A DNA stretch of 37,705 bases from Phycisphaerales bacterium. GTDB lineage: Bacteria; Planctomycetota; Phycisphaerae; Tepidisphaerales; Tepidisphaeraceae. Position 1 is the stretch's first letter. Each line of letters starts with the position of its first letter. A program made the position numbers and the translations under genes. The notes under the pieces are model-generated. The model had not been told where the DNA came from. It saw only the letters and a list, made by a program, of their open reading frames with translations, and did not search any database. The DNA is taken from positions 1 through 37,705 of the forward strand of contig JADLBV010000049.1 of NCBI GenBank assembly GCA_020847545.1. The letters are read 5' to 3'. Positions 20,849 to 33,099 of the stretch are shown piece after piece.

Positions 20849-22426
20849 ATGAGATCCAAGGCATTTCAACGATGGTTGATGGTCGTCGGCCTGTTCTGTT
20901 ATTCGGGTCAGCAGACGAACAGTTTCGGCCAGACGCAGATCAATGCCGCTGCTCCGGGGCAAGCGATCCATCGGGAGATTCTCGGCAGCACGCTGGCGCA
21001 CGGTCGGTATGTGGTCACGGGGGACAAAGCCTCGCAGATCGGTGTGGCCGGGGGGTTGGAAGCCGAGTTATTCAACTGGCAGACGCTGCAAAACAACTAC
21101 CAGTGGCCGACCTATGGGTTCATGAAAACGACGCAGAACATGGACAGCATGTTCATGCCAATCGTGAACATGCGAGGTGTTTATGACTCGGGCAACAATT
21201 ACAAGACGGACCTGGCCCCGCTGGTGACGCTGGCGTCTGATTGGGTTCGATACAGTAATTTCATCATTCAAAACTACCATCAGGGCGATCCCGTTGGCGC
21301 ATCGGATCAGGCGATTCTCAATAAAATCAACTGGACGGCGTATCCGCAGAAGCTGCCCGCCGTCGGCGAAACCGCGCCGCCGCCGGTGAAATACTGGATC
21401 ATCGGCAACGAGCCGGAGATCAAGGTGAACGGGAAGTGGTTCTCCAGCAATTTCATTGATACGACATTCGGTGGCGCTTGGACGACGGCGGAATACGTCA
21501 ACCGATATACACAGCTCACCAGCGCGATGAAGGCGCAGGATCCGACGATCAAGGTCGGCCCGGGGATGCTCGGCGGCGCCAACGAGGACACCTTCGGCCC
21601 GCTCCTGCAAAGCACTGCCCCGATCGACTTCTGGGCATATCACATCTACGACAATATCAGCGATTCCTACGTCCCCAATGGCAGCGCATCCCAGGTCAAC
21701 GCGATGGAGGCGCAACTGCGGGGCGTCCGGCCGACGCAAATCAACCGACACAACGAGATTCGTCAGACCTTTATCAACAACGGGCGGAATCCCGACAACG
21801 TGGAGTTCATGGTCACGGAATGGAACGTGATGAACGGGGATTTGAACGACGCCAATATACCTTCGATGTACCAAGCTCTCGGGACAGCCGAAACGTTCTT
21901 TTCCTTTGCCGCGATGGGATTGAAGGCGGGCAACTACTGGGGTGAAACGGTCTATCAGCCGGATGTGCCCAACCCTACCAACATCTATCCGATGGTGAAG
22001 GTCTGGTGGAAGCTGCGGGATGAGATGGGGGATACGCTGGTCAACAGCATCATCGACGATGCCAACAACCGGCATATTTATACCACACGCGACAGTCAGA
22101 CGGGTGAGATCAAGGTGTGGGGCATCAACCTGGACAATGACGCGGCCACGAGCATCAACTTGTCGTTGCTTGGAATAAATGCATCCAGCACGGCCACCTT
22201 GTCGATCTTTGGCGGAGATGGCACCAAATTCTGGACAACCGATGCGAACTGGTCATCACAGACCCTGAACAATTTCAATGCCGGGAATTTCAACCTGAGC
22301 ATCCCCAGCGCCAGCATCGCCTTGCTGGAGATTCATCCCGTGCCGGAACCGGCGATGATCGGTTTACTCGGATTGGGCCTGCTGGCGATGGGGCGGCGGC
22401 GACGACAATCGGATAACCTGAATTAA
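20849..22426 (+). CDS. PEP-CTERM glycoside hydrolase (GH-A clan, GH51/GH39-like)
   Basis: A 525-residue secreted enzyme. A signal peptide of about 27 residues is followed by a TIM-barrel domain with an acid/base Glu in WIIGNEPEIK (about 182-191) and a nucleophile Glu in FMVTEWNVMNG (about 320-330). These two strand-end Glu residues are the hallmark of clan GH-A. The overall look (EAELFNWQTLQNN, YTQLTSAMKAQDPTIKVGPG, DFWAYHIYDN) recalls arabinofuranosidase or xylosidase-type enzymes such as GH51, GH39 or GH44. A C-terminal beta domain and a PEP-CTERM tail (VPEPAMIGLLGLGLLAMGRRRR) follow, so it is probably held at the cell surface. Its stop shares one base with the LacI start. The family is inferred; substrate unknown. 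Confidence 0.78.
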   Translation: MRSKAFQRWLMVVGLFCYSGQQTNSFGQTQINAAAPGQAIHREILGSTLAHGRYVVTGDKASQIGVAGGLEAELFNWQTLQNNYQWPTYGFMKTTQNMDSMFMPIVNMRGVYDSGNNYKTDLAPLVTLASDWVRYSNFIIQNYHQGDPVGASDQAILNKINWTAYPQKLPAVGETAPPPVKYWIIGNEPEIKVNGKWFSSNFIDTTFGGAWTTAEYVNRYTQLTSAMKAQDPTIKVGPGMLGGANEDTFGPLLQSTAPIDFWAYHIYDNISDSYVPNGSASQVNAMEAQLRGVRPTQINRHNEIRQTFINNGRNPDNVEFMVTEWNVMNGDLNDANIPSMYQALGTAETFFSFAAMGLKAGNYWGETVYQPDVPNPTNIYPMVKVWWKLRDEMGDTLVNSIIDDANNRHIYTTRDSQTGEIKVWGINLDNDAATSINLSLLGINASSTATLSIFGGDGTKFWTTDANWSSQTLNNFNAGNFNLSIPSASIALLEIHPVPEPAMIGLLGLGLLAMGRRRRQSDNLN

Positions 22427-23514
22427 TGATGCGTTCGTCCACAATCTCATTATCGAAGCTCGAACTGATCGCCAAAGAGGCGGGGGTCTCGGTGCGCACG
22501 GTCTACCGTGTGCTTCGGGGGGATAACAAGGAAAACTGGACCAGCGCCAGCAAGCGCGGGCAGCTTATACGCAAGATTTCCCGCCGGCTGGAGTATTCTC
22601 CCGATGCCAGCGCCCGCAGCCTGCGAACGGGCAAAAAAATGCAGATCGCCGTCCTTGTGCGCAACACGGAAGGGGGGGAACGGCGGGATGATTACTTCCT
22701 GGACGGTTTTGAAATCGTCCTTGGCATGGTGGGGGTGTTGGAGCTGGCCGGCTATTCGCTGACTTTCGCGACGCTGGGGGATGTGACCAATCCACAGGAT
22801 GCCCATTCGCGCATTTTCCGCGAGCATCTGGTTGAGGGATTGATCGTCATCAGCCAGATGCCGCCGGATTTGTTGGATTCGATCGACCGGCTGACACCCA
22901 ATTGCGTGTGGGTTCACTCCAATGTCTGGCGGCCGCAGAATTGCATCCGCCGAGACGAGGTTCATGCCGGTGAAGAGACGGCCAGGGTTTTACTCAATCA
23001 GGGTTACAAAAAGCTGGCCTGGGTTGGACCGCCTGCGATCAACCCGAAAGACCCTGATCGCCACCATAGCGAGGCGCAGCGACTGCAGGGTGTTCGTTCG
23101 ATTGCGGCAAAAAACAACATCGAATTGATCGAGATCATTGCCGACGATCCCGGCCAGATGTTGGATCACCATGCCTTGTTCAGTGATCTTCTGCGGCCGG
23201 AGGTGGGGGTCGTTGTCTACTCCGCGCATTATGCAAGCTGGTTGACGCAGTGTACCCAATCGCTGGGGCGCATCGCGCCTTATGATTTTGGGCTGGTCTG
23301 CTGCGATGATTCGCTGGCCATCAAACACCGCTGGCCGGGGCTGAGCCGGATGGGGTTCAGCTTGATTCATATGGGTCGACAGGCCGGCGCGATGATGCTT
23401 AAGAATCTGAAACAGAAAGAAGGAAAGGGGATTCCCAGTGTGATGATTCGCGATCCATGGGTTCCCGGCAACACGGCTTGGGGACCGCAGGCGGCCGCAT
23501 ATCGGCCAACCTGA
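22426..23514 (+). CDS. LacI-family transcriptional regulator
   Basis: A 362-residue regulator. The N-terminal helix-turn-helix KLELIAKEAGVSVRTVYRVLRGD (in two blocks, about 11-33) has the LacI/DeoR-type layout, followed by a hinge YSPDASARSLRTGKKMQIAVLV. The periplasmic-binding-like effector domain follows (about 72-345), with DGFEIVLGMVGVLELAGY, VEGLIVIS, CCDDSLAIKHRWPGLS and HMGRQAGAMMLKNL. It probably senses a sugar released by the locus. Its ATG overlaps the stop of the glycoside hydrolase by one base (TAATGATG), so it is coupled. A second ATG immediately follows. Confidence 0.9.
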   Translation: MMRSSTISLSKLELIAKEAGVSVRTVYRVLRGDNKENWTSASKRGQLIRKISRRLEYSPDASARSLRTGKKMQIAVLVRNTEGGERRDDYFLDGFEIVLGMVGVLELAGYSLTFATLGDVTNPQDAHSRIFREHLVEGLIVISQMPPDLLDSIDRLTPNCVWVHSNVWRPQNCIRRDEVHAGEETARVLLNQGYKKLAWVGPPAINPKDPDRHHSEAQRLQGVRSIAAKNNIELIEIIADDPGQMLDHHALFSDLLRPEVGVVVYSAHYASWLTQCTQSLGRIAPYDFGLVCCDDSLAIKHRWPGLSRMGFSLIHMGRQAGAMMLKNLKQKEGKGIPSVMIRDPWVPGNTAWGPQAAAYRPT

Positions 23515-23556: not shown

Positions 23557-26500
23557 TTGAAACGGAATTCAGTAACTTGGCTTGGTGGGGCGTGGGTGAC
23601 GGCACTTGCACTGCTGTGTGTGAGTGTAAGTAACCTCCACGCGGCCGGAAAGCCGGCTTTGGGGGATGGTCTCTCCTTTTACGCCGGATTTGAAGGGACG
23701 GATGAGCCGGCCTATGCGCGGGGCGCTTCAACGGCCGGGGGGAATTATGTTCAGACCGATGGTGTTGTCGGAAAAGGGGTTGATGTCGGCAGTGGACCAC
23801 CCAGCTACAGCCAGCCCGGCAATCTGGATCGTACCGAGGGAACCTTGAGCTTCTGGATCAAGCCCTCCATTGACATGGCCCGACATGTTGGGCAGGGGGA
23901 GGCGATTCGCCACATCATCAAGGCGGTTGTCTTTCAGTTCAGCGCCTATGTGAATCTACCCAATACCACGCCGGCCATCTATTTCATGACCGGTACTTCC
24001 CTGCCGGGTCAGGATTTTCAGTGGGATTATGGCACAACCGCCCCGATCAATTCATTGCCGGCGGAACAATGGACGCATGTGGCGCTGACATGGAACACAC
24101 CCAAAAAGCAAAAGTCGATCTACATCAATGGCAAACGAGTGGCAAACCAGACAACGCCGCTTATGCTGGATGGGGACAGTGGGGAGGGGTTCACATTGGG
24201 CGAGGGTTTGCCGGGGGCCTATGATGAATTGGCGATTTGGAATCGCGTCCTGACACCCCTTGAAATCAGCCAATTGGCCCAAAAGCCGGCCGATGCGGCC
24301 GAAACACTCAATACGGCCGCCGGGATGAAGGCGGATGAGAAGGCCGGCCAGACGGTGCAATGGACGATCTATCCGGAGCTGATTTATCAAAACTACGCCG
24401 ATTCGCTGATTGAACCCAATGAGGAATTGGCATTGAACCTTCCATTGGAGAACCGCGGCGACAAACAACAGGCCGGTGTCGTCACCATCGAGGTGCAGGA
24501 TGTGTGGGATCGGCCGGTTGGCAAGGCACAAACCTTTAATGTCGATTTGGCGGCCGGTGAAAAAAAGGAATTGCCCTTCAAGGTTGCCGTGGACCACTAC
24601 GGCGCGTTTCGCATCGCGGTGACGGTGGATGTGGGTGGCAAGAAGGCCGGCCGTGATGTGACGACATTTGGGTGTTTGCCCAAGGATCCGCCGCCGATTC
24701 ATCCATTTTTCGGAGGACATATCAGCCAGGTCGGCACGATTCCGCAAATGGGTCGGCGGCTGGGTTTTGCCCGTAACCGTGTCCATAACATGACGCAGTT
24801 CACCTGGTGGTGCCGGATGGAACCCCAGCGGGGCGATTGGGCGATGCAGGGATTTGGGACGTATCAACATTATATGGACCTGGGGTACACCCATTATGGC
24901 CAATGGATGTATGCACCCTATTGGTCGGTGACATTGCCTGATGGCAGTCATCCGGTGGATCCGGGCAATGAAGTGGGATGGCGGCCAACGGACATGGAGG
25001 CGATGAAGATTTATGTCCGTGAGTCATTGAAGCGTTTTCCTGAGATTAAAGAGTGGGAGATTTGGAACGAGCCGTATGTTTCGATGTTCTGGCAGGGGTC
25101 GGCTAAGGATTACGTGGACATGTGCCGCGTGGTCTACACAGAGGCCAAAAAAGATCGGCCGGACATCACGGTCTATGCGCAGCTCTATTATGAAGGCCCC
25201 TGGACGCGCGACGCGATGAAACTGGGTGTGCTCAACTATTGCGATGCGGTTGCCTACCACAATTATATGCAGCCCAACGGCGACCCACAGGCCGCCGCCG
25301 AGCCTGTGCGGAAGCTTCGCGCTCTCCTCAAGGCGTTTGGCCGTCCCGACATGCCGATCATCTGCTCGGAATCGGGCATGAACTGCACGACGTTCCTGCG
25401 CGGGTTGGATTTCAAGCAGTTGCCCCCGCCGTCGGTCCGCCAGCCGATGGATTATCGACAGGCGGCTGAGGAACTGGTGCAGGCGCATGTGGTGATGATG
25501 GCCGCGGGCGTTCAGGCTTGGTATTACTATTTTCACCAGCCGGTATTGCCAACCGCCGAGGGGGTCTGGCCCTATGTCAACTATTCAACCCTTGAGGTGA
25601 CCCGCTCGCCCAAGCCGATGGCGATTTCGCGTGCCCAGTTGGTGTGGCAACTTGACGGCGGCCATTTCGTATCCGAAATGCAAACCGCGGCCGATGGTGT
25701 GCGGGCGTATGCCTTTGAGCGTCAGGATGGCCATGCAGTTGCGGTTTTATGGGCCGAGAATGGCGCATCAGCGCAACTGAAAGTGCCCGCCGGCATGAAT
25801 GTGGTCGAACTGATGGGAAATCCGGTTCAATCACCGAGCGTTGAGATTGCGCATACCCCGCTTTATCTGCACGCGACGGATGTTGCGCAATTGCAGTCGG
25901 CGTTGCGGGATGGCTCGGTCATCACATCGACGCGACCGCCGCAAAAGATTGGTTCTTCCACCGGCGGTGTGGCACCTCCCATGAAGATGGAGGATTTTTC
26001 CATCGCATCGGAAGTCGGCCCCGGTAAGCTAGTGCCGCTGGACCTCTCGCCCTTTGCCAATATGGCGCGCGCCGATGAGCAACTGGGCGATGGCAAGGGT
26101 GGGTGGATGGATGAGGGGCCGTATAACGATGGCCGCGATTTACGGCCGGGAAAACACACCTGGCTGGGCGTTCCATTTGTGGTGGGGGGCCAAAACGACA
26201 CAGACCCGGCCGTGATCACGCTCAAGGGCAGAACATTCCCCAATGGCCCGCAGGAAGTCGGCCCGATTGCCGTCAACCGAAAATTACGCGGCCTGTTCTT
26301 CGTTCATACGGCCAACTGGACGCAGATTGGGAAGACCGTCGGGGAATACATCATCCATTACACCGATGGGAAGGATGTGAAACTGCCCATCATCGTCGGC
26401 CAGAACATCGGCGACTGGTGGTCCGACCATCTGGAAGGCGAGGATAGCCGAACCGTCGGTTTCAAGGCCGCCAACCCGCTTGAGCCGGCCAGCCCATACC

Positions 26501-26625
26501 GCTATTTGCGCATCTGGTATTGGGAAAACACACGTTCCGATGCAACCATTGAATCGATCAGCGTCCGTTCACTGAACAACGATATGACCTTTACGGTGGT
26601 AGCGGTTACCGCCGCAACACATTAA
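23557..26625 (+). CDS. LamG plus GH-A glycoside hydrolase, 1022 residues
   Basis: A large secreted enzyme. A signal peptide (about 1-29) is followed by a LamG/concanavalin-type jelly roll (about 36-240, with GLSFYAGFEG, EGTLSFWIKPS, EQWTHVALTWN and AYDELAIWNRVLTPLEI). Then comes a linker/beta domain (about 260-380), and a TIM-barrel domain (about 380-700) with acid/base Glu in EWEIWNEPY near residue 502 and nucleophile Glu in ICSESGMN near 603. A C-terminal beta domain follows (about 780-1022), including RGLFFVHTANWTQIGKTVGE, as in discoidin-like or carbohydrate-binding modules. The start codon is TTG, preceded by AGAGGT at good distance. I place it in clan GH-A near GH39/GH5-type proteins; exact family and substrate are open. 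Confidence 0.8.
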   Translation: MKRNSVTWLGGAWVTALALLCVSVSNLHAAGKPALGDGLSFYAGFEGTDEPAYARGASTAGGNYVQTDGVVGKGVDVGSGPPSYSQPGNLDRTEGTLSFWIKPSIDMARHVGQGEAIRHIIKAVVFQFSAYVNLPNTTPAIYFMTGTSLPGQDFQWDYGTTAPINSLPAEQWTHVALTWNTPKKQKSIYINGKRVANQTTPLMLDGDSGEGFTLGEGLPGAYDELAIWNRVLTPLEISQLAQKPADAAETLNTAAGMKADEKAGQTVQWTIYPELIYQNYADSLIEPNEELALNLPLENRGDKQQAGVVTIEVQDVWDRPVGKAQTFNVDLAAGEKKELPFKVAVDHYGAFRIAVTVDVGGKKAGRDVTTFGCLPKDPPPIHPFFGGHISQVGTIPQMGRRLGFARNRVHNMTQFTWWCRMEPQRGDWAMQGFGTYQHYMDLGYTHYGQWMYAPYWSVTLPDGSHPVDPGNEVGWRPTDMEAMKIYVRESLKRFPEIKEWEIWNEPYVSMFWQGSAKDYVDMCRVVYTEAKKDRPDITVYAQLYYEGPWTRDAMKLGVLNYCDAVAYHNYMQPNGDPQAAAEPVRKLRALLKAFGRPDMPIICSESGMNCTTFLRGLDFKQLPPPSVRQPMDYRQAAEELVQAHVVMMAAGVQAWYYYFHQPVLPTAEGVWPYVNYSTLEVTRSPKPMAISRAQLVWQLDGGHFVSEMQTAADGVRAYAFERQDGHAVAVLWAENGASAQLKVPAGMNVVELMGNPVQSPSVEIAHTPLYLHATDVAQLQSALRDGSVITSTRPPQKIGSSTGGVAPPMKMEDFSIASEVGPGKLVPLDLSPFANMARADEQLGDGKGGWMDEGPYNDGRDLRPGKHTWLGVPFVVGGQNDTDPAVITLKGRTFPNGPQEVGPIAVNRKLRGLFFVHTANWTQIGKTVGEYIIHYTDGKDVKLPIIVGQNIGDWWSDHLEGEDSRTVGFKAANPLEPASPYRYLRIWYWENTRSDATIESISVRSLNNDMTFTVVAVTAATH

Positions 26626-26645: not shown

Positions 26646-27401
26646 ATGGAAAAATCACATCAATCCCGTCGACAGACCGGCCGAATCACCGCATTTACAC
26701 TGGTGGAACTGCTGGTCGTCATAGGAATCATAGCGCTGTTGATCAGTATCCTGTTGCCGTCGTTGAACAAGGCTCGCCGGGCGGCCCAGGCGGTCGCGTG
26801 CGCTTCAAACATGCGTCAGGTGGGAATAGCGATGCAATTTTATGTCAATGATACGAAGGGCATGTATCCGCTCAGCTTTCAATACCGAACCGCATCCTAT
26901 TATCCTGATTTTGTATCAACCGCCATTCGCTGGGATGATCTTTTGATTATTAAGGGATATATCGCAAACAGCGGCATCCTTTTATGCCCGATCGCGCAGC
27001 AGATTCAAGTGCCATATCTCTACGACTACAATGGGAAACAGGTGCTCTACGATAGCCATCGAAACTATGGTGTCGCCGTGTTTGGCATTGGTGGGGGCAA
27101 TAACCCGAGTTGGAACTGGTATGATCCGGCCAAGTTTATCGGGATACGCCAGGGCCAAATCAAAGATTCAGCGGCGAGAATTGCTGTCGGAGAAGCGGAT
27201 GAACAGGGATACCCAAACAACAACGGCTTTAGAATGAATGGTGATACCGCCTATTCATTGTATGGGGTTCCGGCCAAATGGCATAGTGGCGGGGGGAATT
27301 ATCTGTACCTTGATGGTCATGTGACGTACAAGAAATTTGAAGAAGTTGCCTGGCCCAATGAGGTATCGCTTTACATATGGTTCTATCCGAATCAATTGTA
27401 G
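26646..27401 (+). CDS. Prepilin-type pseudopilin with H-x9-DG-like tail
   Basis: A 251-residue protein with an N-terminal prepilin motif: basic leader, then AFTLVELLVVIGIIALLISI, in which cleavage by prepilin peptidase precedes the Phe and the Glu at +5 is present. The helix continues into LPSLNKARRAAQAVACASNMRQ. The C-terminal globular part ends in WHSGGGNYLYLDGHVTYKKF, the H-x9-DG block found in many planctomycete pseudopilin-like proteins. GGAG lies about 10 bases before the ATG, and the enzyme gene ends 20 bases upstream. It may form a pseudopilus or a surface scaffold that positions secreted enzymes. Its truncated paralogue follows directly. Confidence 0.88.
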   Translation: MEKSHQSRRQTGRITAFTLVELLVVIGIIALLISILLPSLNKARRAAQAVACASNMRQVGIAMQFYVNDTKGMYPLSFQYRTASYYPDFVSTAIRWDDLLIIKGYIANSGILLCPIAQQIQVPYLYDYNGKQVLYDSHRNYGVAVFGIGGGNNPSWNWYDPAKFIGIRQGQIKDSAARIAVGEADEQGYPNNNGFRMNGDTAYSLYGVPAKWHSGGGNYLYLDGHVTYKKFEEVAWPNEVSLYIWFYPNQL

Positions 27402-27425: not shown

Positions 27426-28049
27426 ATGGCATCACAGACAGTACAATGCGCCTCGAACATGCGCCAGATCAGCCTGGCCATGAAAATGTACGCCAACGAT
27501 TCCAAAGGCAAATACCCGATATGGAACACGTACGCGCCGCCGGCCGGCTGGCCGTTGATAGACATCCACTGGGACGATTTGTTGATTGTCAACGGATATA
27601 TCAACAACAGCCGGATCCTTCAGTGCCCGGTCGCCAAGGATATTCAGGTACAATATTTTTATGATTTTCAGGGGAAACAGGTGCTGTATATCAGTTGGCG
27701 GCATTACGGCATCGACATCTACGGCGTCGGCGGGATGAACTATCCGGCCAATAACTACTGGTGGCAGGGCGGCGTGACGAAATATGTCAGTGACGCCCAG
27801 ATCAACGATGCTTCCGAGAAAGTGGCGGTCGGTGAATCCGACGGGTTGCAAATCAACTCAAACACCTATATTGCAAGCGGCGACAATTGGCCCAGCGCGC
27901 AAGGTATTCCCGCCACATGGCACAACGGCGGCGGCAATTATCTGTTCATGGATGGGCACGTAAGCTATAAGAAATTCGCCGATATCTGCTGGGTCAATAA
28001 TCCAAGGACTTACGCGATGTGGTACTATCCCATTCCGAAGACACCCTAA
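27426..28049 (+). CDS. Pseudopilin paralogue without N-terminal prepilin helix
   Basis: A 207-residue paralogue of the preceding gene that begins inside the family, at MASQTVQCASNMRQISLAM, equivalent to residues 46 and on of the upstream copy. The shared blocks run to the end: W-DDLLI-NGYI, QVLY, VAVGE, WHNGGGNYLFMDGHVSYKKF. The leader, the cleavage site and the membrane helix are missing. As written it would be a soluble cytoplasmic protein. It may be a pseudogene, a 5' deletion after tandem duplication, or a soluble partner. The ATG has no strong ribosome site. The stop shares one base with the next gene's ATG. Confidence 0.75.
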   Translation: MASQTVQCASNMRQISLAMKMYANDSKGKYPIWNTYAPPAGWPLIDIHWDDLLIVNGYINNSRILQCPVAKDIQVQYFYDFQGKQVLYISWRHYGIDIYGVGGMNYPANNYWWQGGVTKYVSDAQINDASEKVAVGESDGLQINSNTYIASGDNWPSAQGIPATWHNGGGNYLFMDGHVSYKKFADICWVNNPRTYAMWYYPIPKTP

Positions 28050-30259
28050 TGAGTTCATCAACTGTATCTGAATTAAGGCCCTCGCACGGGACACGACATC
28101 GAGTATCGCACCATTTGTCGGGGTTTGGTGTCGTGTTGCGCCTGGCTCGTCGTGAGAGTGACGCCGATTTGATGTTGGAACTCGGGTTTCCGGACGGCGG
28201 GATAGTCGTCCGGACGCCCTATTCCCGCTTCACGCCGATCTCACTGACGCGGCCGTGGGCGATTTCGCCCGATCCCCGGCCGTTGGAGATCGTCTCGGTG
28301 GAGTCAATGGATGATGTGTTGAGGGTTGTCACACGGTCCGATCTATTTGAAATCACTGATCAATTTACGTTTCAGGACAATCTGTTAAAGGTTCATCGTC
28401 AGTGGCAGTGCACGGCAACGCAGCTCGTGGACAATATCGCCCTGGGGACGGCCTTTTGCGTCGGCAACGGCATCGCCCAGCAGATAACTCTGCCTGGCGT
28501 GCTCTACAACAACAACCCGTCGGCTGCCGCGAACCGCCTGGTGCCGCACCTGGAAGGAACTGCGGAGGCACTGGTGGTTGAAGAACACCGCTTGCCAATT
28601 CCCGGCGTCAATGTCGAGTGGCGTCAGGAGAGCCAGCACGTTTCATTAACGATGCTGGTTCAGCCGGATGTTCGCGCGGTTGATCGCGATGGTCAGCCAG
28701 AATGCGATTCACTGGGCGTTATCACGCGCGGCGCGCAAGTGGAGCTGGTCAGTCTCAGTGGTGTGGTGGCGTTCAATGGAGAAAAAGATCACGTCTACGG
28801 CGGGCAGAATCATTCCATGCCGGCGCTGACCGATGGATATCTGTCTCTGCGGCCGGGCCAGTGTTATACCAAGACGCTCTATCTGACACTGTCCAGTTGC
28901 AAGCAGGAAGGGCGCGGTTTTCGGTCATTGGTGACGGCTGGTTGGGACCTGCTCAAACCCCAAACTCAGCCATGTTTCGCTCTGGATACGACCGTTGGAC
29001 TCAAGCTCAATGCGTTGCGTGGTCGATGGCGGGATTACAGCGGACGTCGAGGATTTATTTATCTTCCCGAGCCGGGCAGACCGGGGAATGTCTATTCTTA
29101 CCCCCCGACCATCCTTTATGGTTGGACCGGGCAGGCGATGAAACTGGCGTGGTGCGCTCTGAAGGCATCGGTCAGCGGGTTTGATGATGCGCCGTGGCAA
29201 GAGATGGGGACAACAGTTCTGGATCACTTTGTCTCGGCGCCGTCGCTGGAAGGGCATCCTGGTTGTCGTTTGGGCGGTCAGAGTCTGACGGATGGGCAGT
29301 GGTTCGGTGTGGACTGGGGAGGCTCATCATCGTTGATGAGCAGCCGGTCGCTGGGCGAAACGCTGACCTCGCTGGCGGACTGTCTGACGCTTTTACATGA
29401 GCATCGATTGCCGATCAAACCCCAGTGGCGCCAGGCGCTGGTTGAGGGGGTGCAGTTTTTATCCAGTACGCCATTGACGGATCGGGGAATCTTCCCCGCA
29501 GCTTTCTCCGCGGCAACGGCTGATGGGGAGCTCTCGAATACCCCTTCGACAGCGGGGGTTACGTGTGTCATGGCGATGCTGGCTGCGGCAGAGTTTCTGA
29601 ATGATGCGAAATTGACTGATGCCGCATGCCTTATTCTGGATCGTTACGCGGAAATTTATACAGCAGACTTTCGGCACCCGTTCAACGGAGCGACGCTGGA
29701 TGCGGCGTGCGAAGATAAGGAAGCGGGTCTGTTTTATTTTCTGGCCGCCGCCCGTGCCTATGCGCTGACTCAAGACGCGCGTTATGCCAAACAAGCCGAA
29801 CTGGCCGCCGACTGGGTTGCCACCTTTATCTATCACTGGAATGTTCCGATGCGACCGGGGACGACGCTGGCGGACGAAAAATTTTGTAGCTGTCTCTGGC
29901 CAGGAGTCAGTGTCCAGAACATGCATCTGGATGTATTCCATGCACCGTATGAGCTGTATGCGTTTGGGCGGTCGATTGGCAATGATCGATTGATGCAGAT
30001 GGGACAGGGAATTATGCAGGCCTGGACGCACGGCATCGCCCAACGCCCCGGCCACTGGGGCTATGACATCCCCGGTGAGCAGGCCGAACAGTTTTTTCAA
30101 ACCAACTACATTCAAGGCCCCGGCGGACCGGAACTGTGGCGCGGTGGATTTAATCCATGGAACCCCTCCTGGATCATCGCCAACGTGCTGGAAGCGGCGC
30201 TGAAGTTTCGTGACAGTCCGGCGGCGCTCAACATGTGGTTTTATCCGAAAGTACACTGA
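28049..30259 (+). CDS. Large toroid-like protein, possible glycan hydrolase or lyase
   Basis: A 736-residue protein I do not recognise at family level. It has an N-terminal region of about 330 residues rich in beta strands (a possible beta-sandwich), then a C-terminal region with repeated alpha-helical hairpins and aromatic residues (LYGWTGQAMKLAWCALK, FGVDWGGSSSLMSSRSLGET, TDAACLILDRYAEIY, KEAGLFYFLAAARAYAL). This recalls the six-hairpin (alpha/alpha) toroid of glycoside hydrolases, lyases and epimerases. There is no signal peptide or sorting tail, although its neighbours are secreted. The ATG at 28049 overlaps the previous stop (TAATG), so it is coupled. It could process oligosaccharides after uptake. 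Confidence 0.6.
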   Translation: MSSSTVSELRPSHGTRHRVSHHLSGFGVVLRLARRESDADLMLELGFPDGGIVVRTPYSRFTPISLTRPWAISPDPRPLEIVSVESMDDVLRVVTRSDLFEITDQFTFQDNLLKVHRQWQCTATQLVDNIALGTAFCVGNGIAQQITLPGVLYNNNPSAAANRLVPHLEGTAEALVVEEHRLPIPGVNVEWRQESQHVSLTMLVQPDVRAVDRDGQPECDSLGVITRGAQVELVSLSGVVAFNGEKDHVYGGQNHSMPALTDGYLSLRPGQCYTKTLYLTLSSCKQEGRGFRSLVTAGWDLLKPQTQPCFALDTTVGLKLNALRGRWRDYSGRRGFIYLPEPGRPGNVYSYPPTILYGWTGQAMKLAWCALKASVSGFDDAPWQEMGTTVLDHFVSAPSLEGHPGCRLGGQSLTDGQWFGVDWGGSSSLMSSRSLGETLTSLADCLTLLHEHRLPIKPQWRQALVEGVQFLSSTPLTDRGIFPAAFSAATADGELSNTPSTAGVTCVMAMLAAAEFLNDAKLTDAACLILDRYAEIYTADFRHPFNGATLDAACEDKEAGLFYFLAAARAYALTQDARYAKQAELAADWVATFIYHWNVPMRPGTTLADEKFCSCLWPGVSVQNMHLDVFHAPYELYAFGRSIGNDRLMQMGQGIMQAWTHGIAQRPGHWGYDIPGEQAEQFFQTNYIQGPGGPELWRGGFNPWNPSWIIANVLEAALKFRDSPAALNMWFYPKVH

Positions 30260-30309: not shown

Positions 30310-31815
30310 ATGACACAAAACACCCTTATCGTCGATTACGACTGCAGCAACGTTTTCGTCTCACATGAACCCGATGAGTTAAATCTTCAGGGACTCCAAG
30401 CGTGGGTCGATCAATATGCCGACACGCAGGTGTCGCATCTGTTTCTCAATCCCAATGCCCAGCGCACGGACTATGACAGCAATGTCTGGGAGTCGATGTG
30501 GCGACAGGACGACCCGCAACGATTGAGCAGGGCATCGGATGGCGCCCGCAAGTGGGCGAATCATTTGCGGCTGCTTTATGAACGGGGACTCGATCCATAC
30601 GCGGTGTGGATCGATCGCTGCCACCAGAAGGGGATCAGTCCGTGGTTGTCGATGCGCATGAATGAAGTGCATGACACCGATAATCCGGACAGCCCGCTCC
30701 TGAGCACATTCTGGAGGAAGCATCCTGAGTATCGCCGGGTTCCCGGCAGTCCGCGCGGTTATGAGGATCAGCAGTTGGATTTCGCGCACGAACCGGTGCG
30801 CCGCTATGCGCTGGCCCTTCTGGACGAATTCATGCATCGCTACGATGCCGACGGCGTATCCCTCGATTGGATGCGGTTTCCGTACAATATCCGCCCGGGG
30901 CATGAGCAGGCGGGCCGACTCATCCTCAACGAATTCATGACAACCGTTCGGACGATGGCCCGAAAACGATCACAGGATCGCGGCCGTGAGCTGAAAATCG
31001 CCGCCCGCGTGCCGGCCGACCCGCAACTGGCAAGGGGATTCGGACTGGATGGCATCGAGTGGGTTCGGCGCGGGCTGGTGGACATCCTGATCGTCACACC
31101 CTTCTGGGGATCGGCGAATTTTGATCTTCCGATGGAACTGTGGCGAGAAATGCTGGGCAAGGATGCCGACCGAATCAAGCTGGTCGGCGGGACGGAAGTA
31201 TTGGCCGCCGCTTGGGCCTTTCCACATGCCAAGCGATCCCATTGCGACATCGAGGCGTTGCGCGGTCTGGCGGCCGGCATTCTCCACCGCGGGGCCGACC
31301 AGGTCTATCTATTCAACTTTTATGACCGCCTCCACTGTTTTTACACCGATGAGGAGTACGGCCGCATGCTCCGCGAGGTCGGCGATCTCCAGACGGTTCT
31401 GGACAAGCCCCGACGGCATATCGTGACCTACATCGACGCGCTGCCACCGGGCGTACCATGCGGTTATCTGCTCCCGCACCAGTTGACCTATCCCAACCCA
31501 GCCCAATTCCGCATCTACACCGGCCCCAAACCCGCCGGAGGCCGCGTCACTTTACGAGTCGGCCTGGAAGGGGACAATGATGACCTAGCGCACGCCACAC
31601 TGGCCGCCCGTTGCAACTGTGAGCCATGCGCGGCATTGCCCGACATCACCTCGACGCTGCCGCCGCATACGAATCGGTATCTGGAGTATGATATTCCGCT
31701 GCGGGTGATGCAGGAGGGATACAACCTTGCGGAGCTATTTACGAAAAAGGAAGCATCCGCGCGAATCGTATGGGTCGAACTGAGGATAGATCCAACATAT
31801 GAGGTGGCAAAGTGA
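30310..31815 (+). CDS. GHL10-like TIM-barrel protein
   Basis: A 501-residue protein with a TIM-barrel part of about 370 residues: CHQKGISPWLSMRMNEVHD, ADGVSLDWMRFPYNI (the family-10-like 'GHL10' signature, with an acidic residue pair), then RVPADPQLARGFGLDGIEWV and GADQVYLFNFYDRL. A C-terminal beta domain follows (about 390-501). GHL10 proteins are thought to act on peptidoglycan or polysaccharide, but biochemical evidence is thin. There is no signal peptide at the ATG at 30310, and an upstream start at 30235 would overlap the previous gene. It is the last intact gene before the GH98 remnant. Confidence 0.7.
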   Translation: MTQNTLIVDYDCSNVFVSHEPDELNLQGLQAWVDQYADTQVSHLFLNPNAQRTDYDSNVWESMWRQDDPQRLSRASDGARKWANHLRLLYERGLDPYAVWIDRCHQKGISPWLSMRMNEVHDTDNPDSPLLSTFWRKHPEYRRVPGSPRGYEDQQLDFAHEPVRRYALALLDEFMHRYDADGVSLDWMRFPYNIRPGHEQAGRLILNEFMTTVRTMARKRSQDRGRELKIAARVPADPQLARGFGLDGIEWVRRGLVDILIVTPFWGSANFDLPMELWREMLGKDADRIKLVGGTEVLAAAWAFPHAKRSHCDIEALRGLAAGILHRGADQVYLFNFYDRLHCFYTDEEYGRMLREVGDLQTVLDKPRRHIVTYIDALPPGVPCGYLLPHQLTYPNPAQFRIYTGPKPAGGRVTLRVGLEGDNDDLAHATLAARCNCEPCAALPDITSTLPPHTNRYLEYDIPLRVMQEGYNLAELFTKKEASARIVWVELRIDPTYEVAK

Positions 31816-32013: not shown

Positions 32014-33099
32014 ATGAACCACAGAGAACGCGTCTTAACCGCCCTCAATCACGAAACTCCTGACCGGTGCCCGATGCAAATCAGCTTCACGCCCGAATTT
32101 GCCACGCGGCTGCGCGCGGACATGCGGATGGCCGGCAAGACCGGGCACAACCCGCACGGCGGCGGCAACACCTACGAACTCGAACGTGCCTTGGACGAAG
32201 ACCTCTTGCTCACAAGCGTCGGCTGGGCCAATTGTTATTACCATTCGAAAGAACCGTATACCGATGAATGGGGCGTTGGTTGGAGTTCCGCCGAGTACTC
32301 CACGCCGTTCGGTAAAGGTTTCTACACCGAGATCACCGACCACCCGCTCGCCGCCGACAACGCCCTCTCCTCCTACCGGCCACCCGACCCCAACAGGCCC
32401 GAACTCTACGAGGACGCCGCGCACCTGCTCAAGAATTACAAGAAGGACTACTTTATCGTCGGCGTGACGGTGACGACCATCTTCGAGACGGCGTGGGCGC
32501 TGCGCGGATTGGAGACGTTGCTGATGGATTTGGTGACTGATCCCGATTTGGCGAAAGCCATTCTCGAGATCCCCTTCCGGTATCACCTGACAGCGGCAAA
32601 GAAACTTGTACAGATGGGGGTGGATGCGATTTGGGTCGGCGATGACGTCGGCGCACAGAACGCGATGGCAATCTCACCGGAGTTGTGGCGCAGAATCTTC
32701 AAGCCGATGTGGGCTGAATACTTTAGCGAGCTGAAGCATCTCAACCCGCAGTTGAAGATCATGTACCACTCCGACGGTGTGATTGATCCGATCATCCCCG
32801 ACATGATCGAAGTCGGCCTTGATGTGCTCAACCCGATTCAGCCCGCTTGCATGGATCCGGCAACGTTGAAGAAGCAATACGGCGATAAGCTCTGTTTCTG
32901 GGGCTCGATTGACGAGCAGCACACGTTACCGTTCGGCAAACCGGAAGATGTACGCAAAGAAGTCCTCACACGCCTCGAGACGATTGGCAAAGGTGGTGGC
33001 CTCATCATCGGGCCGACCCACCATGTCCAACTCGACACCCCCATGCAAAACTTCTGGGCAATGCACGAAACAATTACCGGAACACCGTACCAGAGATAA
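32014..33099 (+). CDS. Uroporphyrinogen decarboxylase (UroD)-family protein
   Basis: A 361-residue UroD-fold protein. The N-terminus MNHRERVLTALNHETPDRCP matches the family opening and is followed by a TIM barrel with DAIWVGDDVGAQNAMAISPELWRR, KIMYHSDGVIDPIIPDMIEVGLDVLNPIQP and FWGSIDEQHTLPFG. Two such families exist: heme-pathway HemE and the MtaA/CmuA/MtbA-like methyltransferases. This one has the longer DDxG/ISPE pattern of the second group, so it is more likely a methyltransferase or unknown than HemE. It lies 198 bases beyond the previous gene at the end of the glycan locus. Such genes often accompany planctomycete glycan loci, perhaps for demethylation. Confidence 0.85.
   Translation: MNHRERVLTALNHETPDRCPMQISFTPEFATRLRADMRMAGKTGHNPHGGGNTYELERALDEDLLLTSVGWANCYYHSKEPYTDEWGVGWSSAEYSTPFGKGFYTEITDHPLAADNALSSYRPPDPNRPELYEDAAHLLKNYKKDYFIVGVTVTTIFETAWALRGLETLLMDLVTDPDLAKAILEIPFRYHLTAAKKLVQMGVDAIWVGDDVGAQNAMAISPELWRRIFKPMWAEYFSELKHLNPQLKIMYHSDGVIDPIIPDMIEVGLDVLNPIQPACMDPATLKKQYGDKLCFWGSIDEQHTLPFGKPEDVRKEVLTRLETIGKGGGLIIGPTHHVQLDTPMQNFWAMHETITGTPYQR

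Follow-up and report, generated by a model that had tools for sequence, protein, structure and literature searches.

A two-domain protein from a Phycisphaerales contig that apparently belongs to a broad, unmodelled family of likely carbohydrate-active enzymes

In a 37,705-nt stretch of DNA from a Phycisphaerales bacterium (contig JADLBV010000049.1 of assembly GCA_020847545.1, positions 1 to 37,705; hereafter the window), the open reading frame (ORF) at 28049-30259 (+) translates to 736 residues plus a stop codon. This protein apparently belongs to a broad family, modelled neither in Pfam nor in NCBIfam, whose members are likely carbohydrate-active enzymes. In the reading that we favor, with a probability of about one half, the protein would work in the cytoplasm as a glycoside hydrolase with carboxylate catalysis and trim oligosaccharides after their import.

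The TAA of the preceding gene (28047-28049) overlaps the ATG of the ORF (28049-28051), so the initial annotation was right to describe a 736-residue frame coupled by TAATG to its upstream neighbor. Nucleotide differences from two orthologues fell mostly at third codon positions (117, 93 and 300 at positions 1, 2 and 3 over 725 codons for the 78% identical orthologue at locus L002, and 198, 150 and 364 over 711 codons for that at L004), indicating a real, conserved protein under selection. The annotation had also noted the lack of a signal peptide and of any family signature, and in both respects we saw the same: no signal peptide was found by eye or hydropathy, searches returned no Pfam match at E-values up to 1 and no NCBIfam match at 0.1, and no family in Pfam-A or NCBIfam scored above its curated cut-off. 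A second copy of the gene was not found in its own assembly (3.75 Mb, 162 contigs) at E ≤ 0.01.

Most likely the C-terminal half of the protein forms an (alpha/alpha)6 barrel that stands behind a beta-rich domain; the barrel class itself is likely, judging from partial profile matches and a low-confidence model. A profile built from 35 members picked for diversity and length matched, at E ≤ 0.001 in the PDB, GH76, a LanC-like protein, the polysaccharide lyase 5a29, GH127, GH105, GH88 and the BT_3782 glycosylhydrolase, all of which we take to be (alpha/alpha)-barrel proteins; the best of these matches was to GH76 (1.9e-10). Two AlphaFold2 models were built from two-row alignments, a full-length one with a mean predicted local distance difference test (pLDDT) score of 33, which was not used for fold searches, and one of the C-terminal domain (pLDDT 43, predicted template modelling score 0.51), which was used with caution. 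The beta-rich N-terminal and helical C-terminal parts that had been described from the sequence appeared in the two models, at these low confidences. The C-terminal model aligned with GH76 (Z 13.5 over 264 residues, root-mean-square deviation 5.1), and also with PL17 (Z 13.3), AlgL (Z 13.0), AGE, GH105 and GH88, the alignments spanning most of its length and the 50 rows shown ranging from Z 11.1 to 13.5.

Conserved residues point to where catalysis might take place. The charged barrel residues found in at least 80% of the 35 members were D551, D556, E558 and E680 only, all of them carboxylates, and the low-confidence model puts the four near the barrel mouth. We also used a 17-row alignment that excludes near copies, rows too divergent to keep and fragments at contig ends (e.g., L012 and L018); four of its rows (L006-L009) are close relatives, so that a count of 17 of 17 overstates independence. 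Most of its invariant residues in the helical half stood where an inner helix begins or in long loops (GWxGQ, TLDAxCEDKE, VSVQNxHxDV and GxQxEQ..TN), with further invariants in the EEHR...P....E motif of the beta domain. From residue 291 on there were 36 invariant positions, two of which were in the five outer helices, with helix limits set partly by hand on the low-confidence model. Carboxylates in the last long loop are commonly used by (alpha/alpha)-barrel glycoside hydrolases. As the four carboxylates reach at least 80% and N624 and H626 are present in 24 of 35 members each, acid/base hydrolysis would be favored over an elimination by Tyr, His or Arg, and it is from such conserved residues only that we infer a hydrolase rather than a lyase or an epimerase. 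The active site would then be at the entry of the long loops into the inner helices, with E680 and one residue out of D551, D556 and E558 acting as acid and base, or as nucleophile, and the beta domain may close the pocket with its EEHR..E loop.

For the beta domain, a profile made from 31 of the 35 listed N-terminal parts had no significant relative in the PDB (the best match, with an E-value of 0.04, was a methyltransferase), and no Pfam family was matched by more than one of the 31 members. Across the 35 diverse members R181 (30) and E179 (28) of its motif were kept more often than E190 (16) and E178 (15).

Several observations weigh against a barrel hydrolase. In the structure comparison, suggested earlier as a check, the C-terminal model had no Foldseek match at E ≤ 0.001, and according to the tool that gave the alignments above a Z of ~13 can be ordinary for helical models. 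The barrel sequence matches cover part of the helical domain only (~25-135 profile positions), and hairpins of this kind also weakly match designed repeat proteins and squalene cyclase. In the 35-member alignment E558 is lost in three rows and D551 in two, while N624/H626 and R698 might be residues used by a lyase; hhalign comparisons with single GH88 and GH78 proteins gave 1% and 0.2%, and none of the window genes scanned could be identified as a transporter gene. The initial annotation had suggested a new hydrolase, lyase or epimerase family acting inside the cell. The barrel class, the conserved carboxylates and the carbohydrate-degradation neighborhoods of relatives fit an intracellular enzyme of this type, but the protein does not stand alone, as it belongs to a broad superfamily of uncharacterised proteins.

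The PL27 L-rhamnose-alpha-1,4-D-glucuronate lyases (BACCELL_00875, 5no8/5nok; a 694-residue chain) are similar in length and have a beta-sandwich followed by an (alpha/alpha)6 barrel (PMC8377490), an order that for the 736-residue protein is predicted at low confidence. The match of 5no8 to the 35-member profile was co-linear but non-significant (E 0.19 over 82 profile positions) and does not allow the protein to be placed in PL27. Four further PDB profile searches, one of them with the beta-domain profile, did not list 5no8 at E up to 10. The GH76 alpha-1,6-mannanases gave both the best profile match and the best structural match to the helical domain, but the best profile stretch is limited to ~75 positions, and GH76 enzymes are not known to have an N-terminal beta domain; PF03663 was not matched by the 736-residue protein, and relatives scanned singly reached at most 19.9 bits against a cut-off of 25.9. 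For the GH127 beta-L-arabinofuranosidases there was a PDB profile match (E 8.9e-5) and an hhalign match to one protein annotated as a beta-L-arabinofuranosidase of GH127 type (88%, E 2.9e-6, 111 columns). Residues 96-213 of the 651 in that single sequence matched residues 458-584 of ours, which suggests a different domain order; in GH127 the catalytic barrel precedes the beta domains. PF07944, the model of the catalytic domain, was not matched by the 736-residue protein, and the listed relatives all fell below its cut-off of 24.9 bits, the nearest (L020) at 24.8. The C5-epimerase model PF06662 was matched by seven of 17 members, which at first looked promising, and was set aside because even the best match spans no more than 40 of its 188 positions. 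GH154 was considered on account of GH88 neighbors: a recent paper re-describes it as a uronate dehydratase (BcGDH, BT3677) linked to GH88/GH105 partners, gives Y229, R285, Y289 and Y354 as mutation-sensitive active-site residues of BcGDH, and describes BT3677 as similar in size to our protein and as having a second domain (PMC12269599). Set beside the conserved barrel residues of the 35 rows, without direct alignment, the Tyr/Arg set given there for BcGDH has no counterpart; 8OI4 (GH154) was not among the PDB profile matches shown, which excludes nothing, as its presence in the library is unconfirmed.

The main rival to a hydrolase, which we consider rather unlikely, is an (alpha/alpha)-type poly- or oligosaccharide lyase or uronate dehydratase, in which N624/H626 and an arginine would abstract the C5 proton of a uronic acid. 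Such an enzyme would fit the invariance of N624, H626 and R326 in 17 rows (Y533 and R698 are kept in 16), the presence of PL17 and AlgL among the structural matches, and the GH88 neighbor of a Bacteroides relative. Its candidate residues are less well kept than the carboxylates, however, H626 and N624 occurring in only 24 of 35 members against 29-34 for the four acids, and among the barrel's Tyr, His, Arg and Lys residues none is conserved in as many as 80% of the 35 rows; in addition, 5no8 was missing from four PDB profile searches at E up to 10, and a Pfam scan of 19 window proteins gave no GH88 or GH105 match.

We regard as improbable a sugar epimerase or isomerase (resembling AGE or D-glucuronyl C5-epimerase) acting on free or polymer-bound sugars. 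There were partial AGE and C5-epimerase matches in Pfam and the PDB, relative L013 exceeds the Pfam C5-epim_C cut-off (28.7 against 23.3 bits), and cellobiose 2-epimerase is among the structural matches (Z ~12), but the C5-epimerase coverage is as short as stated above, with no match in the 736-residue protein, and AGE enzymes are not known to have the beta domain. There is likewise little to recommend a protein without catalytic activity that binds glycans or serves in assembly and is coupled to the pseudopilin-like genes. The appeal of this reading comes from the TAATG junction and from the L002 orthologue, which also follows a pseudopilin-like gene; among the loci compared, however, pseudopilin-like homologues were present only in L002 (adjacent) and in L058 and L065 (kilobases away), the acidic residues are kept across phyla, and the clade of the window protein shows no export signal by eye.

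Relatives of the protein have a patchy distribution of the accessory kind. By tblastn at E ≤ 1e-3, 27 of 397 genomes of its own class matched, some weakly; with the 17-row profile at 1e-10, matches came from 20 of 392 genomes drawn from its own phylum, and five of 101 genomes of relatives also matched at 1e-10 (own genome counted in each case). The nearest named relative is in a Phycisphaerales metagenome-assembled genome (78% identity); loci L002 and L003 were treated as one. Further relatives were found in plasmid records of Streptomyces (two records), Catenovulum, Segatella and Bacteroides, and in a Deinococcus plasmid when the Bacteroides protein was the query; in the annotated plasmid records seen they are called hypothetical proteins. 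The two Streptomyces records have 17 of 25 tested proteins in common at 94-98% identity (the second stretch being shorter) and so are not independent. A distant group of relatives aligned with the 17-row alignment over 579 columns (hhalign 100%, E 1.2e-43), which shows that this is a real superfamily. Three scans of viral contigs gave 38, 37 and 39 pattern matches and no relatives, and no phage record matched. We found no description of the family in the literature under the search terms used, although one may still have been published.

In a 24-row tree the 736-residue protein, two orthologues, the G080 relative and Streptomyces formed one group (support 100/99, with a long-branch warning). 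Among 13 rows judged by eye, an N-terminal hydrophobic segment was absent from all five loci of this group and present in all eight others; each row began at its first start codon, a position upstream of the homologous start in L002 and L058, and the Streptomyces relative L032 has a hydropathy maximum of 1.63 (not at its start), close to the 1.69 of the weakest exported row.

The gene contexts of relatives, among them breakdown genes for sugars of pectin and seaweed type, speak for glycan catabolism in part of the family, though not for one substrate. Around the Streptomyces relative L032 there are three GH28 proteins, a GH127-type protein, a pectinesterase, two GH78 proteins, a GH2, a beta-galactosidase and a fucosidase, together with an apiosidase-like protein (PF13204, above cut-off), a RuBisCO-like protein and a four-carbon acid sugar kinase. 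We presume this to be a rhamnogalacturonan-II (RG-II)-type pectin cluster with apiose catabolism, and our best guess for the substrate of this relative would be an RG-II-type pectin side chain. The Catenovulum relative adjoins sulfatases and a DUF5060 protein (apiosidase match below cut-off), and the G526 relative is near sulfatases; for secreted, sulfatase-linked relatives a sulfated glycan would be the best guess. The Bacteroides relative adjoins GH2, GH130, GH88 and GH43, and that of Deinococcus occurs with transporters, a sugar kinase and a 2-keto-3-deoxy-6-phosphogluconate-type aldolase. Several loci had no obvious glycan genes among the few neighbors scanned; the G056 relative is beside transglutaminase-like and mannosyltransferase-like genes, and the G365 relative beside a peptidase. 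In Streptomyces sp. NBC_00184 the homologue follows directly on sialidase-like, apiosidase-like (PF13204) and DUF5605 genes (L072:18915-22419) in a pectin-degradation cluster where genes for the RuBisCO-like protein and the four-carbon acid sugar kinase also occur, and a 573-residue hypothetical protein of this cluster with a trace of the GH127 middle domain below cut-off (L072:30491-32212) is another unassigned candidate enzyme.

Table 1. Coordinates of the 736-residue protein, its conserved motifs and neighboring genes in the window
Feature	Coordinates	Strand	Remarks
736-residue protein; beta-rich N-terminal domain (~20-290) and (alpha/alpha)6-type helical domain (~310-725)	28049..30259	+	Domain limits from low-confidence models
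EEHRLPIPGVNVE motif of the beta domain (E178, E179, H180, R181, P185, E190)	28580..28618	+	Each in 16 or 17 of 17 rows
TLDAACEDKE, start of inner helix (D551, D556, E558); proposed catalytic carboxylates	29693..29722	+	33, 29 and 32 of 35 members
VSVQNMHLDVF, start of next inner helix (N624, H626, D628)	29906..29938	+	Invariant in 17 rows; 24, 24 and 27 of 35 members
GEQAEQFFQTN, last long loop (E680); proposed second catalytic carboxylate	30074..30106	+	34 of 35 members
DUF1559/H-X9-DG pseudopilin-like gene, translationally coupled, without N-terminal prepilin segment	27426..28049 (stop included)	+	
GHL10-like next gene, weak in the window	30310..31815	+	Also adjoins the orthologues in L002 and L058; start 30310 by eye
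1022-residue LamG-containing protein, same operon	23557..26625	+	Homologue in L002
PEP-CTERM protein, sub-threshold GH39 similarity (E 0.062)	20849..22426	+	Homologues in L002 and L058
LacI-type regulator	22426..23514	+	

The genes around the ORF (Table 1) make the earlier term "glycan operon" reasonable, given the weak to moderate GH39 and GHL10 similarity of neighbors. The GH39 similarity is stronger in the homologues at L002 (E 3.7e-7, above cut-off) and L058 (9.4e-4, below cut-off), and the GHL10 similarity is below the Pfam cut-off in the window gene and above it in L002. The LacI-type regulator probably provides local sugar-responsive control. "Pseudopilin-like" is a fair name for the upstream gene, as 27426-28046 scores above the DUF1559 (PF07596) and H-X9-DG cut-offs. 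The pseudopilin-like gene before it (26646-27398) has an N-terminal prepilin segment, its Pfam N_methyl match being below cut-off; the coupled gene has neither the prepilin motif nor the hydrophobic helix of this neighbor and looks like a shortened duplicate. A gene of the uroporphyrinogen-decarboxylase family (MtaA-like) lies nearby at 32014-33096, and in G080 an MtaA-like homologue (L059:10685-12031) adjoins the 36%-identical relative. An MvaI/BcnI-type restriction endonuclease gene (6-1208) stands at the start of the window.

If the protein is an enzyme, then it belongs to an enzyme group found in Phycisphaerales, the rest of the phylum, Streptomyces, Bacteroides, Segatella, Catenovulum and Deinococcus, of which no scanned member has a full-length Pfam or NCBIfam model above cut-off. 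We tentatively suggest that it might represent a new carbohydrate-active enzyme family, possibly a new clan of several families, secreted and cytoplasmic, in which a new beta domain and an (alpha/alpha)6 barrel would cleave a linkage without an assigned enzyme, for example a rare RG-II side-chain linkage in Streptomyces. The Streptomyces locus would give a testable substrate class for such an enzyme, and the four carboxylates would give testable mutants.
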